From: an uncultured Erysipelotrichaceae bacterium
GTDB taxonomy: Bacteria; Bacillota_I; Bacilli_A; RF39; UBA660
Assembly: GCA_902791625.1 (NCBI GenBank)
Contig: CADAWN010000017.1
Span: 1-64,000 of the forward strand
DNA: 64,000 bases
Direction of reading: 5' to 3'
Below are positions 16,367-60,918 of this stretch, piece after piece. How positions within the stretch are numbered: the first letter of the stretch is position 1; every line of letters begins with the position of its first letter. The notes under the pieces were generated by a model that saw only the letters and a program-made list of their open reading frames with translations, was not told the origin of the DNA and did not search any database. The position numbers were made by a program, and so were the translations under genes.

Positions 16367-17869
16367 ATGAATGAAGAGGAAAGAGTTGAACTTGCAGAAA
16401 TATTATTTCCTAGTATTAAAACTACACGTGATGAAATAGAGGAAAAGTATCCTGAAAGAAGTTTGGAAGAAGGAGCTAAAGTTACTCGTTTTGCGCCATC
16501 TCCAACTGGATTTATGCATGTTGGTAACTTAGAAAGTGCTTTCTTAGATTATATTTTTGCAAATCAAAGTAAAGGTATATTTTATTTAAGATTTGAAGAT
16601 ACAGATCAAGAAAGATATGTAGAAGGAGCAACTGACTTAATTAAATCTTCACTTGAAACATTTGATATACTTCCAACAGAAGGAGCATTAAATGGTGGAG
16701 TTTATGGACCATACGTTCAAAGTGAAAGAAAAGAAATATATCAAACTTATATTAAAGATTTAATTATTAAAGGACTTGCTTATCCTTGTTTTATGACTAA
16801 AGAAGAACTTCAAGAAATAAGAGAAGGACAAGAACTAAGAAAAGAAGCAATAGGTGTATATGGACCATATGCAGCTGATCGTGATTTATCTCTTCATGAA
16901 ATTAAAAAACATTTAGATAATGGTGATGAATATGTAATTAGAATTAAATCTCCAGGAGAAGTAAATAACACAGTTACACTTCATGACTTAATTAAAGGTG
17001 ATATTACTATGCCAGAAAATATGATAGATGAAGTTATTATGAAAAAAGATGGACTTCCTACATATCACTTCGCACATGTAATAGATGATCACTTAATGCA
17101 TACAACTGTTGTAATTAGAGGAGATGAATGGGTACCAAGTTATCCTAAACATTTACAACTTTGTCAAATACTTGGATTTAAAGTACCTAAGTATGCACAT
17201 TATGCACCACTTACTAAGAAAGATGAAGAAACAGGTAATGTTAGAAAATTAAGTAAAAGAAAAGATCCAGAATTCTCAGTAGAATATTATGAGAAACAAG
17301 GTATTCCTGCTGAAGGAGTAAAACTATTCTTATCAACTATTGTTAATACTAACTTTGAAGAATGGTATTTACAAAATACTGATAAAAGTTATTTAGACTT
17401 TAATTTCAGTTTTAAGAAAATGCCTACTGGTGGAACACTATTTGATGTGGAAAAATTAAATAATATTTGTCGTACATATTTCTCAAGAGAAAGTGCTGAA
17501 AAGATATATGATGATAGTCTTCCTTACTTCAAAAAGTATGATGAAGAGTTTTATAGAGTAATGACTGATAATAAAGATAGATTAATTAGTTTCTTAGATA
17601 TAGAAAGAAATGGTAAAAGACCTCGTAAAGATATTGCTACATATAAAGATGTAAAAACAGAATCTATTTATATGTTTGATGAATATTTCTTTGGAGATAA
17701 AGAAAAAACATATTCTGAAATAGATAAAGAAAATGTTGATATAGAATTATTAAAGAAATACTTAAATGTATTTGATGAAAATGATGATAATGAAACATGG
17801 TATTCTAAAATACAAGTTTTAGCAGAAGAAAATAATTATGCAGACATATTGGAGATATATGTGAAATGA
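16367..17869 (+). CDS. gltX: Glutamate--tRNA ligase
   Basis: Class I aminoacyl-tRNA synthetase that charges tRNA-Glu (and possibly tRNA-Gln before amidation). 'RFAPSPTGFMHVGN' at ~41-54 is the HIGH region, here HVGN, and 'KLSKRKDPE' is the KMSKS motif. A ~38-residue N-terminal extension ('LFPSIKTTRDEIEEKYPERSLEEGAK') marks the sub-type seen in some Firmicutes with ~500-550 residues. A tRNA-Gln gene lies 950 bases upstream; no glnS is in view. The stop overlaps a small downstream frame by ATGA. Confidence 0.95.
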   Translation: MNEEERVELAEILFPSIKTTRDEIEEKYPERSLEEGAKVTRFAPSPTGFMHVGNLESAFLDYIFANQSKGIFYLRFEDTDQERYVEGATDLIKSSLETFDILPTEGALNGGVYGPYVQSERKEIYQTYIKDLIIKGLAYPCFMTKEELQEIREGQELRKEAIGVYGPYAADRDLSLHEIKKHLDNGDEYVIRIKSPGEVNNTVTLHDLIKGDITMPENMIDEVIMKKDGLPTYHFAHVIDDHLMHTTVVIRGDEWVPSYPKHLQLCQILGFKVPKYAHYAPLTKKDEETGNVRKLSKRKDPEFSVEYYEKQGIPAEGVKLFLSTIVNTNFEEWYLQNTDKSYLDFNFSFKKMPTGGTLFDVEKLNNICRTYFSRESAEKIYDDSLPYFKKYDEEFYRVMTDNKDRLISFLDIERNGKRPRKDIATYKDVKTESIYMFDEYFFGDKEKTYSEIDKENVDIELLKKYLNVFDENDDNETWYSKIQVLAEENNYADILEIYVK

Positions 17870-17976
17870 TTAGACATGTAGTAACTGGTAAAAATCAAAC
17901 TCCTAATCTTTCTAATATATTAAGTATTTTAGGAAAAGAGAATATTGAAAAAAGAATATTATTCTTTGAAAAATAA
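17866..17976 (+). CDS. Possible 36-residue small protein coupled to gltX
   Basis: ATGA overlap with the gltX stop codon begins a 36-codon frame (MIRHVVTGKNQTPNLSNILS..., ending ILFFEK). The overlap is the arrangement expected for translational coupling. No family is recognised and the frame could be chance. It ends just before the promoter of the first antisense RNA. Confidence 0.35.
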   Translation: MIRHVVTGKNQTPNLSNILSILGKENIEKRILFFEK

Positions 17977-17993
17977 CATATTTATGATATAAT
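17966..17993 (+). promoter_or_regulatory. Promoter of antisense RNA 1
   Basis: TTGAAA (17966-17971) and TATAAT (17988-17993) are separated by 16 bases, with TGATATAAT giving an extended -10. The same layout (TTGAAAAA...TATGATAATATGTATTTAG) recurs at locus 2. Confidence 0.7.
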
Positions 17994-17999
17994 GTATTT

Positions 18000-18110
18000 A
18001 GTGAAGGAAACTTCATAAAATAAAAAAGGAACACTTAATATTGCAGTGTTGAGTGTTGCCAATTAGATTGGGTTCACCTAATTCATTGCTGAGTTAGGTG
18101 ATTTTCTTTT
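18000..18110 (+). ncRNA. Putative antitoxin antisense RNA 1
   Basis: The predicted transcript starts GTGAAGGAAACTTCAT, a hairpin with a GAAA tetraloop. A second hairpin follows (AACACTTAAT with GTTGAGTGTT), then a terminator stem TCACCTAA/TTAGGTGA and TTTTCTTTTC. It is complementary to the 3' end of the convergent minus-strand peptide mRNA. The first ~70 bases, promoter included, are nearly identical to locus 2 at 18308-18375. Confidence 0.6.
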
Positions 18111-18193
18111 CATATCAATACTACGAATAGTAATAATATTAATAGGAAGATGAGTATGATTAATGAAAAGATTAGTAAATCTTTCTTAAACAT
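18110..18193 (-). CDS. Putative type I toxin peptide 1 (27 residues)
   Basis: A 27-residue peptide on the minus strand starts MFKKDLLIF and continues as an almost unbroken Leu/Ile/Val/Phe helix to ...FVVLI. A strong AAAGGAGGCGATAAT ribosome site precedes the ATG. Upstream, TGATATAAT (minus strand, 18259-18267) is an extended -10. On the minus strand the mRNA would end at the hairpin near 18030-18060, followed by CCTTTTTTATTTT, so its 3' UTR is antisense to the plus-strand RNA. Membrane insertion and toxicity are inferred from the arrangement; the peptide matches no family I can name. Confidence 0.6.
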   Translation of the reverse strand: MFKKDLLIFSLIILIFLLILLLFVVLI

Positions 18194-18258
18194 ATTATCG
18201 CCTCCTTTCCTTTTTGGAAAATAGGCAATCACCCAACTTATTAAATGTTCCAGTATTT

Positions 18259-18267
18259 ATTATATCA
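18259..18267 (-). promoter_or_regulatory. Extended -10 promoter of toxin mRNA 1
   Basis: On the minus strand, TTTGATATAAT followed 7 bases later by GGAACATTTAAT, the probable start of the toxin mRNA. The -35 element is not clear. Confidence 0.5.
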
Positions 18268-18340
18268 AATATTTGTTCTATAAAGTACTGGCAATTTATG
18301 GTAAAACTTGAAAAAATAAGTATTTTATGATAATATGTAT

Positions 18341-18456
18341 TTAGTGAAGGAAACTTCATAAAATAAAAAAGGGAACATTCAGTTTCGCATACTGAATGTC
18401 TACCTATTTGTTGGTAAGACATTTAATATCTTATGATATTAAGTGTCATTTTTTTA
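18341..18456 (+). ncRNA. Putative antitoxin antisense RNA 2
   Basis: The same 5' hairpin as RNA 1 (GTGAAGGAAACTTCAT) is followed by hairpin ACATTCAGT/ACTGAATGT. A 13-bp terminator, GACATTTAATATC with GATATTAAGTGTC, ends in TTTTTTT. The terminator overlaps the stop codon of the convergent minus-strand peptide gene. The promoter is TTGAAA (18308) with GATAAT (18329). Confidence 0.6.
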
Positions 18457-18538
18457 TTACGATAATCATAATGATTAGGAGCAACAAAATGATAGAAAGA
18501 TATCTAAGAATTTTTATTACAAAAACTCTTTTCGTCAT
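18446..18538 (-). CDS. Putative type I toxin peptide 2 (30 residues)
   Basis: A 30-residue minus-strand peptide starts MTKRVFVIKILRYL, continues as a Leu/Ile-rich membrane helix and ends IVIKK. It has a basic N-terminus, one transmembrane helix and a basic end, the usual form of type I toxins. AGAAAGGAGG precedes the ATG at normal spacing; the longer open frame upstream has no ribosome site and is rejected. Its mRNA 3' UTR is antisense to RNA 2. The expected minus-strand promoter region is occupied by the pepC ribosome site and start, and I see no good -10 there. Confidence 0.55.
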   Translation of the reverse strand: MTKRVFVIKILRYLSIILLLLIIMIIVIKK

Positions 18539-18618
18539 TTTATCAAACCTCCTTTCTTCTAGAAGATTAGAGGTAGACACCCAGTAACTAAATGTTCCAA
18601 ATAATGGGAGGATTTTAG

Positions 18619-19944
18619 ATGAAAGAATTAACAAAAGAATACTTAAATGAAATAGATAATGAGTATAAAGATAATAAGATTTATAAACTTAGTAGACTAG
18701 CTTTAAATAAAACAAAGATAAGTGATTTGGTAAGAGTAGGAGAAGAAAGTAGTAATTTAGTAAATAACTTTTCTGTTGATATTAAAACTATGAAAGTAGC
18801 TAATCAAAAGAAAAGTGGTAGATGTTGGATTTTTGCAGGACTTAATATTTTAAGAGAAGAAGTAGCTAAAAAATATGATATAGAAGACTTTGAACTTTCT
18901 CAAAACTATATTGCTTTTTATGACAAATTAGAAAAGTGTAATTACTTTTTAAACTCTGTTATTGAACTTAGTGGTAGAGATATAGATGATAGACTTTTAT
19001 CATTCATTTTAATGCGTGGTATTGAAGATGGTGGACAATGGGATATGTTTGTAAATGTTGTTAAAAAATATGGAGTAGTGCCAAAAAATACATATCCAGA
19101 AACTTTTCAAAGTGAAAATACAAAAGAAATAGATAATATTCTAAATAGATATTTAAGAAAAACTACATATATGATAAGAAGACTTTATAAAAATAATAAA
19201 GAAGATGAAATAGAAAAATTAAAAGATAAAGTTATGAAAGAAATATATGAGATACTTTGTAGTGCTTTTGGAATTCCACCTAAAGAGTTTTCTTTTGAAT
19301 ATGTAGATAAAAAAGAAAAATATCATCTTATAAAAGATATTACTCCTTTAAAATTCTTAGAAGAGTTTGTAGACTTTAATTTAGATAATTATGTTAGTAT
19401 CATTAACAGTCCAACTATAGATAAACCATTTAATAAAACATATACAATTAAATATCTTGGTAATGTAATTGAAGGGGATAAGATACTTCATTTAAATGTT
19501 TCTATGGATAGATTTCGTGATTTAATAGTTACCCAATTAACTGATAAAAAACTTGTTTGGTTTGGTAGTGACTGTAGTAAATATGGAGATCGTGATGAAG
19601 GTATTTGGGATGATAATAGTTATGATGAAGGAAGTCTTTTACAAATAGATTTAAAAATGAGTAAAGAAGAGATGCTTGATATGAGAGAAAGTGCGATGAA
19701 TCATGCAATGGTCTTTACTGGTGTAAATATAGATAATGGTATTCCTACTAAATGGAAAATCGAAAATAGTTGGGGAGATGAGGTTGCTGATAAAGGTTAT
19801 TATGTTGCAACAACTAGTTGGTTTAATAACTATGTTTATCAAGCTGTAATAGATAAAAAATACTTAACTAAAGAAGAATTGAAACTATTAGATGAATCTC
19901 CAAAAGAACTAGATCCTTGGGATCCAATGGGAACACTTGCTTAG
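18619..19944 (+). CDS. pepC: Aminopeptidase C (peptidase C1B, bleomycin hydrolase family)
   Basis: Cytoplasmic papain-fold aminopeptidase, 441 residues. The catalytic Cys is Cys69 in 'NQKKSGRCWIFAG'. The His lies in 'MNHAMVFTGVN' (~361) and the Asn in 'WKIENSWGDE' (~383). Length and motif order match PepC/Bleomycin hydrolase. GGGAGG precedes the ATG. No clear promoter is visible between the upstream small-RNA terminator and the start. Confidence 0.95.
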   Translation: MKELTKEYLNEIDNEYKDNKIYKLSRLALNKTKISDLVRVGEESSNLVNNFSVDIKTMKVANQKKSGRCWIFAGLNILREEVAKKYDIEDFELSQNYIAFYDKLEKCNYFLNSVIELSGRDIDDRLLSFILMRGIEDGGQWDMFVNVVKKYGVVPKNTYPETFQSENTKEIDNILNRYLRKTTYMIRRLYKNNKEDEIEKLKDKVMKEIYEILCSAFGIPPKEFSFEYVDKKEKYHLIKDITPLKFLEEFVDFNLDNYVSIINSPTIDKPFNKTYTIKYLGNVIEGDKILHLNVSMDRFRDLIVTQLTDKKLVWFGSDCSKYGDRDEGIWDDNSYDEGSLLQIDLKMSKEEMLDMRESAMNHAMVFTGVNIDNGIPTKWKIENSWGDEVADKGYYVATTSWFNNYVYQAVIDKKYLTKEELKLLDESPKELDPWDPMGTLA

Positions 19945-60729: not shown

Positions 60730-60735
60730 ATAAGT

Positions 60736-60918
60736 GTCTAGAGGATGCGATTCTAGCAAATATAAAACCGACTAAATTAACGATAAGGGAATTCTGATTA
60801 GTTCTATCCGTGTTGAAAGCCTTTAAGTAGGAATCCTGAAGATAGAAATAAGAATACCCACCTGTACAAATAACAGGTTTTATCGTCGCAAAGACCGCTC
60901 CTTTGGCTTTTTTTTGAG
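60736..60918 (+). ncRNA. ssrS: 6S RNA (ssrS), probable
   Basis: The long gap between the hydrolase and the next gene holds a ~180-base structured RNA. Its ends can pair (GTCT with AGAC, TGCGA with TCGCA, CGATAA with TTATCG). The 3' half has 'GTTGAAAGCCTTTAAG' and 'AATACCCACCTGT...ACAGG', a pattern known from 6S RNAs. A CTTTGGC stem and eight T end it. It would bind sigma-A RNA polymerase in stationary phase. The assignment is by recall of pattern, not by covariance search. Confidence 0.7.

Follow-up and report, generated by a model that had tools for sequence, protein, structure and literature searches.

The window analyzed here, a 64,000-nucleotide (nt) stretch of contig CADAWN010000017.1 from an uncultured Erysipelotrichaceae bacterium, carries between 17966 and 18610 two tandem loci, each with a hydrophobic peptide on the minus strand and a convergent RNA on the plus strand. 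The initial annotation had proposed an undescribed family of type I toxin-antitoxin systems, with an antisense RNA to the 3' untranslated region (UTR) of the toxin messenger RNA (mRNA) and a 5'-3' pairing within that mRNA. It had named as checks a search of related genomes for the promoter/hairpin segment and the peptide pattern, and the folding of both RNAs with a test of covariation. Our results support this proposal as the best reading of the loci: each of them, and the family as a whole, is very probably a type I toxin-antitoxin module, whose transcription and toxicity we infer from sequence.

The antisense RNAs are composed of a near-invariant 5' hairpin (H1), a variable hairpin (H2) and a terminator hairpin (H3). 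As had been claimed, the same hairpin, GTGAAGGAAACTTCAT, opens both RNAs, and it is identical in the two loci (18001-18016 and 18344-18359). The conserved A-rich stretch that follows H1 is, on the minus strand, a U-tract behind the complement of H2, and therefore would terminate the peptide mRNA; this double use would account for a single-stranded linker being conserved to the same degree as the hairpin. In agreement with the view that the variable hairpin also serves as mRNA terminator, CCTTTTTTATTTT comes directly after it on the minus strand. The 5' end of the mRNA (GGAACATTTA..) matches the first bases of the antisense variable hairpin almost exactly, again as first described. Indeed, the 5' UTR is a shortened and diverged copy of H2, so the mRNA can pair with its own 3' end. 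The elements of the initial annotation all lie where it had put them, including the two peptide reading frames behind a GGAGG ribosome site; the list below gives all parts of the two loci. Promoters and RNA ends are predictions from the sequence, and the hairpins masking the Shine-Dalgarno come from folding and covariation.

17966-17993, plus strand: putative promoter of antisense RNA 1 (TTGAAA, 16 nt, TATAAT)
18001-18110, plus strand: putative antisense (antitoxin) RNA 1, with H1 at 18001-18016, the A-rich linker at 18017-18027, H2 at 18028-18060, and the H3 terminator at 18074-18101 plus a U-tract
18017-18251, minus strand: putative toxin mRNA 1, about 235 nt, with its 5' end near 18251 and its 3' end in the U-tract read from the A-rich linker
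18259-18264, minus strand: putative -10 (TATAAT) of mRNA 1, 7 nt ahead of the 5' box
18224-18251, minus strand: 5' UTR box of mRNA 1 (GGAACATTTAATAAGTTGGGTGATTGCC), mimic of H2, with a predicted duplex with its own 3' end of -31.9 kcal/mol
18197-18229, minus strand: predicted Shine-Dalgarno-masking hairpin of peptide 1 (TTGCC...GGAGGC)
18110-18193, minus strand: hydrophobic peptide 1, 27 residues, MFKKDLLIFSLIILIFLLILLLFVVLI, behind GGAGG
18308-18336, plus strand: putative promoter of antisense RNA 2 (TTGAAA, 17 nt, TAATAT)
18344-18455, plus strand: putative antisense (antitoxin) RNA 2, with H1 at 18344-18359, the linker, H2 at 18375-18399, and the H3 terminator at 18418-18447 plus a U-tract
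18360-18598, minus strand: putative toxin mRNA 2, about 239 nt
18572-18598, minus strand: 5' UTR box of mRNA 2 (GGAACATTTAGTTACTGGGTGTCTACC), mimic of H2, with a predicted duplex with its own 3' end of -39.6 kcal/mol
18546-18578, minus strand: predicted Shine-Dalgarno-masking hairpin of peptide 2 (ACCTCT...GGAGGT)
18446-18538, minus strand: hydrophobic peptide 2, 30 residues, MTKRVFVIKILRYLSIILLLLIIMIIVIKK, behind GGAGG

Regarding the antisense RNAs, both fold far more stably than shuffled sequences, with z scores of -5.66 (RNA 1) and -7.49 (RNA 2). When 41 diverged antisense RNAs were aligned, the three hairpins placed 94% of the cells in standard pairs, and we counted 96 changes on both sides of a pair versus 27 in shuffles, with none of 500 shuffles equally good. 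When the alignment was slid as a control, paired cells did not exceed 43%. H1 gives no covariation signal of its own, since its sequence is nearly invariant. A -10 box with at least 5 of 6 matches was in place in 91% of 107 loci, in comparison with 52% in shuffles, and the antisense RNA lay opposite the 3' UTR of the mRNA in every locus read.

The peptide is a regular companion of the hairpin. For 147 hairpin instances, 400 nt or more of downstream sequence was available; 107 of these had a Shine-Dalgarno and a hydrophobic minus-strand open reading frame (ORF) at a constrained distance, a combination present in 0.6% of shuffled regions. From a further 46 instances, 27 showed the hydrophobic frame and the 5' mimic together and 7 showed neither. 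The peptides have 23-38 residues and one hydrophobic stretch, presumably a helix; 90% of the loci encode a basic N-terminus, usually through two basic residues close to the start. Their sequences diverge widely, with several types such as those like MNKKDFLILALIIIILLLIVLLFVILK, MTKRESSQFIIIILLFIVIFIILFK or MKKRIFILKFLRYISIILFLLTLLVMVIKK. Still, 27 disjoint pairs gave a ratio of nonsynonymous to synonymous substitution rates (dN/dS) of 0.28, with 117, 63 and 159 differences at the three codon positions. By these measures, the peptides are under coding selection.

To measure how far the family extends, we searched with a covariance model of the antisense RNA, which matched 173 of the 241 genomes in our sample of the host's order, distributed in 71 of 92 genera. 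Among the matches listed, all belonged to the host's own GTDB family, with up to at least 15 copies per genome (15 being the number of matches scored in each). Outside that GTDB family, a match was found in one of about 340 genomes sampled from the class and in one of about 370 sampled from the phylum. The search of relatives has thus returned a large and dispersed family. With simpler patterns, a 26-base version of the hairpin was present in 32 of 145 family genomes, while the reversed-pattern control gave one match in all, and a 24-base pattern was found in at least 114 DNA stretches of other genomes. Among the matches listed for the latter, nearly all were titled as uncultured Bacilli, Bacillales, Mollicutes/Tenericutes or Erysipelotrichaceae, with Candidatus Coprosoma and Candidatus Ventrenecus also present. 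The exact pattern had zero matches in IMG/VR, and blastn against phage and plasmid collections gave partial matches at chance level only. The unit measures about 340-390 bp and is often arranged in tandem, with a repeat length of 343-386 bp. In a genome of the same genus, the gap between gltX and pepC, where the window loci are found, contains no locus; hence, loci come and go. The sole copy read outside the GTDB family of the host (L185, from about position 1495) encodes a peptide resembling that of window locus 2 and carries a compensatory G-C to C-G change in the stem of the otherwise invariant H1 (CAAG GAAA CUUG). It could stem from horizontal transfer or from a binning error.

Within the host genome, the GTGAAGGAAACTTCAT hairpin occurs 10 times (with up to 2 mismatches), and the covariance model likewise detects 10 significant copies (E of at most 3e-8), antisense RNAs 1 and 2 scoring 97.3 and 93.9 bits. 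At least six loci are complete, namely the two in the window and L005, L006, L007 and L159. Three other copies, L008, L009 and L010 on host contigs C31 and C41, are antisense RNAs with no visible toxin, the last two reaching contig ends. As they have almost the same H2 and H3 as L005, silencing of this complete locus in trans is possible. On host contig C13, L001/L161 has an intact antisense RNA adjoining a hydrophobic frame that lacks a start codon and looks like a toxin in decay. In the host, the two pepC-like peptidase genes (window 18619-19944 and G000:C31:19044-20330) directly adjoin family loci; a general link to this peptidase was rejected, as 0 of 95 loci showed it and it failed to hold in other genomes.

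The 5'-3' pairing of the mRNA had been inferred from two loci, by what was called covariation-like evidence. Both window mRNAs contain it in their minimum-energy fold, mRNA 2 with a 28-bp pairing. Across 62 non-redundant loci, the predicted duplex of the 5' UTR with its own 3' end averaged -34.85 kcal/mol, in comparison with -19.6 kcal/mol for swapped partners. This difference exceeds 20 standard deviations of the permuted means (permutation standard deviation of 0.67), and the own partner was the best one in 40 of the 62 loci. Besides, of the transitions that separate the 5' UTR from H2, 115 preserve a G·U pair with the 3' end of the mRNA and 37 disrupt it (p=1e-5 against a cross-locus baseline). 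Because the changes are directional and G·U pairs are kept, this asymmetry fits RNA pairing and not DNA inverted repeats. The early evidence has therefore grown into strong covariation with a directional G·U signature. Pairing of the 5' UTR with the H2 of the antitoxin was weakly locus-specific (-21.2 versus -18.3 kcal/mol).

A second structure of the mRNA involves the ribosome site. The base after GGAGG, which forms the closing pair of the Shine-Dalgarno hairpin, covaries with its partner: we counted 20 T-A and 13 C-G pairs, 5 T-G wobbles and no T-C or C-A mismatch. Predicted access to the Shine-Dalgarno in full-length mRNAs was low, with a mean of about 0.2, and 34 of 42 loci use the same 5' UTR bases in the 5'-3' pairing and in the mask. 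In these 42 loci, predicted access was 0.26 with the 5'-3' pairing formed versus 0.15 with the 3' UTR taken (p=0.004), the pairing raising access in 24 of them. The idea that the 5'-3' pairing alone hides the Shine-Dalgarno found no support: whether or not the 3' UTR is present, the local hairpin masks this site.

According to these data, a working model can be proposed. The minus-strand mRNA would encode a one-helix membrane peptide that, in excess, would damage or depolarize the cell membrane. The antisense RNA (H1-H2-H3, about 110 nt) would be made constitutively, its 5'-terminal hairpin being protective, and would silence the mRNA through its full complementarity to the 3' UTR (H3'-H2'), by duplex formation and RNase III cleavage together with a fold switch. 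In this switch, the 5' UTR, as a copy of the antitoxin H2, and the antitoxin itself would compete for H2'. Once the antitoxin sits on H2', the freed end of the 5' UTR (..UACC/..UGCC) could pair with the Shine-Dalgarno, masking it more firmly. Given the lower predicted access when the 3' UTR is taken, we favor an outcome like that of SR4 in Bacillus subtilis, reached by displacement together with RNase III decay. The fuller proposal, in which antitoxin and 5' UTR are mimics competing for the 3' terminator hairpin of the mRNA, the 5'-3' paired form is open to translation until the antitoxin displaces it, as a core module throughout this family of uncultured gut Bacilli, is one that we put forward tentatively.

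Several observations weigh against our interpretation. At locus 2, no convincing -10 stands where the toxin promoter would need it; none of 28 peptides matched a known toxin family in Pfam or NCBIfam; and the predicted change in access is small and is reversed in 8 of the 42 loci. Since the effect is of modest size and derives from energy models, we keep as main rival a type I module in which the 5'-3' pairing is instead the silent state, as in hok or AapA, with 3' trimming removing H2' to activate the mRNA and the antitoxin degrading the remainder. This is a possibility we take seriously, if with some doubt. The strength and conservation of the pairing speak for it, as do the low predicted access in full-length mRNAs and the fact that type I loci characteristically have inert primary transcripts (PMC6733600). 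Nevertheless, in silico removal of the 3' UTR leaves the Shine-Dalgarno in its local hairpin, and the segment lost by trimming would be the very target of the antitoxin.

Alternatively, one could argue that the peptides are small regulatory or antimicrobial membrane peptides, for instance released against competitors, and that their antisense control is coincidental. Small membrane peptides do have other roles, and the wide divergence of these sequences would be in line with them, but we consider this unlikely: multi-copy, sporadic and doubly locked expression suits toxins better, as does an orphaned antitoxin beside a start-less toxin (L001), and we saw no leader or export features. It is far less probable that the loci are non-autonomous mobile elements, with the inverted repeats (5' UTR box and H2) as transposase ends and incidental RNA features. 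Copies are dispersed and tandem, and the empty gltX-pepC gap would be expected of such elements; yet the conserved antisense promoter and H1 are placed beyond the inverted repeats, coding selection acts on the peptide, and a DNA-level repeat predicts no G·U-keeping bias. As for chance hairpins and chance hydrophobic ORFs, both commoner at low G+C, the genome-wide copies with a near-zero reversed-pattern control, the covariation and the shuffled ORF control already refute them.

In order to contextualize the family, we compared it with described systems. It shares with type I modules in general a small membrane peptide, an antisense RNA with its own predicted promoter and long complementarity, and a ribosome site masked in the primary transcript. 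In the par/Fst system of the Enterococcus plasmid pAD1, which also has convergent toxin and antitoxin RNAs and a small membrane peptide, direct repeats make the 5' parts of both RNAs complementary. The repeats of the new family are, in contrast, inverted; both RNAs therefore have sequence in common, and it is within the mRNA that the pairing forms. In the aapA/IsoA family of Helicobacter pylori, IsoA is antisense to the 5' region of the aapA mRNA, and the mRNA 3' end mimics the antitoxin. The new family is its mirror image, as in every locus read the antisense RNA covers the 3' UTR and not the 5' region, and the 5' UTR is the mimic. Both are multi-copy chromosomal families, and aapA mRNAs likewise have a 5'-3' long-distance pairing and Shine-Dalgarno hairpins (PMC6733600). 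The timP/TimR system of enterobacteria resembles our working model in that TimR binding is proposed to disrupt the mRNA conformation needed for translation (PMC11228461), this being a 5' UTR pseudoknot in timP and a 5'-3' pairing of predicted effect here.

Two systems of B. subtilis share the 3' overlap of both RNAs and a small membrane toxin, with one helix in the case of bsrG/SR4. The complementarity in bsrG/SR4 is 100-140 bp, whereas the new family is defined by its near-invariant 5' hairpin and by a 5' UTR copying the antitoxin hairpin, neither of which, to our knowledge, has been reported for bsrG. RNA antitoxins of this species bind the 3' end of the toxin mRNA and promote its decay, and SR4 binding also extends the Shine-Dalgarno mask of bsrG from 4 to 8 bp (PMC6562991). 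In txpA/RatA, RNase III is essential for control, and no fold change was seen around the ribosome site (PMC6562991), a difference from the switch proposed here. Homology to either system was not apparent: besides the 28 peptides without a toxin family, a set of 4 likewise had none in Pfam or NCBIfam, and Rfam gave no credible match at gathering or relaxed thresholds. The family thus appears to work like a 3'-overlapping type I toxin-antitoxin system and lies outside every curated family searched, which bears out its description as new. The open-access literature that we searched held nothing relevant on the motif or on type I systems in this lineage and, as far as we could find, the combination of a near-invariant antitoxin 5' hairpin with an antitoxin-mimicking 5' UTR is undescribed.

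Elsewhere in the window, gltX (16367-17977) has a frameshift close to its C-terminus: its reading frame ends at 17869, and what is left, GDICEMIRHVVTGKNQTPNLSNILSILGKENIEKRILFFEK, continues in another one. In a relative of the same genus (L197), the reading is intact and about 17 codons longer at this site. The frameshift is either a real deletion or an assembly error. A 6S RNA (Rfam RF00013) lies at 60732-60913 on the plus strand.

The results add a very large unannotated family of probable type I toxin-antitoxin systems to an uncultured gut bacterial lineage, in which ten or more copies represent a heavy investment for genomes of about 1-1.6 Mb. Being absent from the family databases searched, the peptides will not be named by annotation pipelines that use them. 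For systems of the txpA, bsrG and par types, it is still an open question how 3'-end antisense RNAs and 5'-3' pairing control translation, and the dozens of diverged copies that keep their pairings make this family a ready-made evolutionary test of such control. If the proposed switch is true, translation would be controlled by displacement, through an antisense RNA that makes no contact with the ribosome site.
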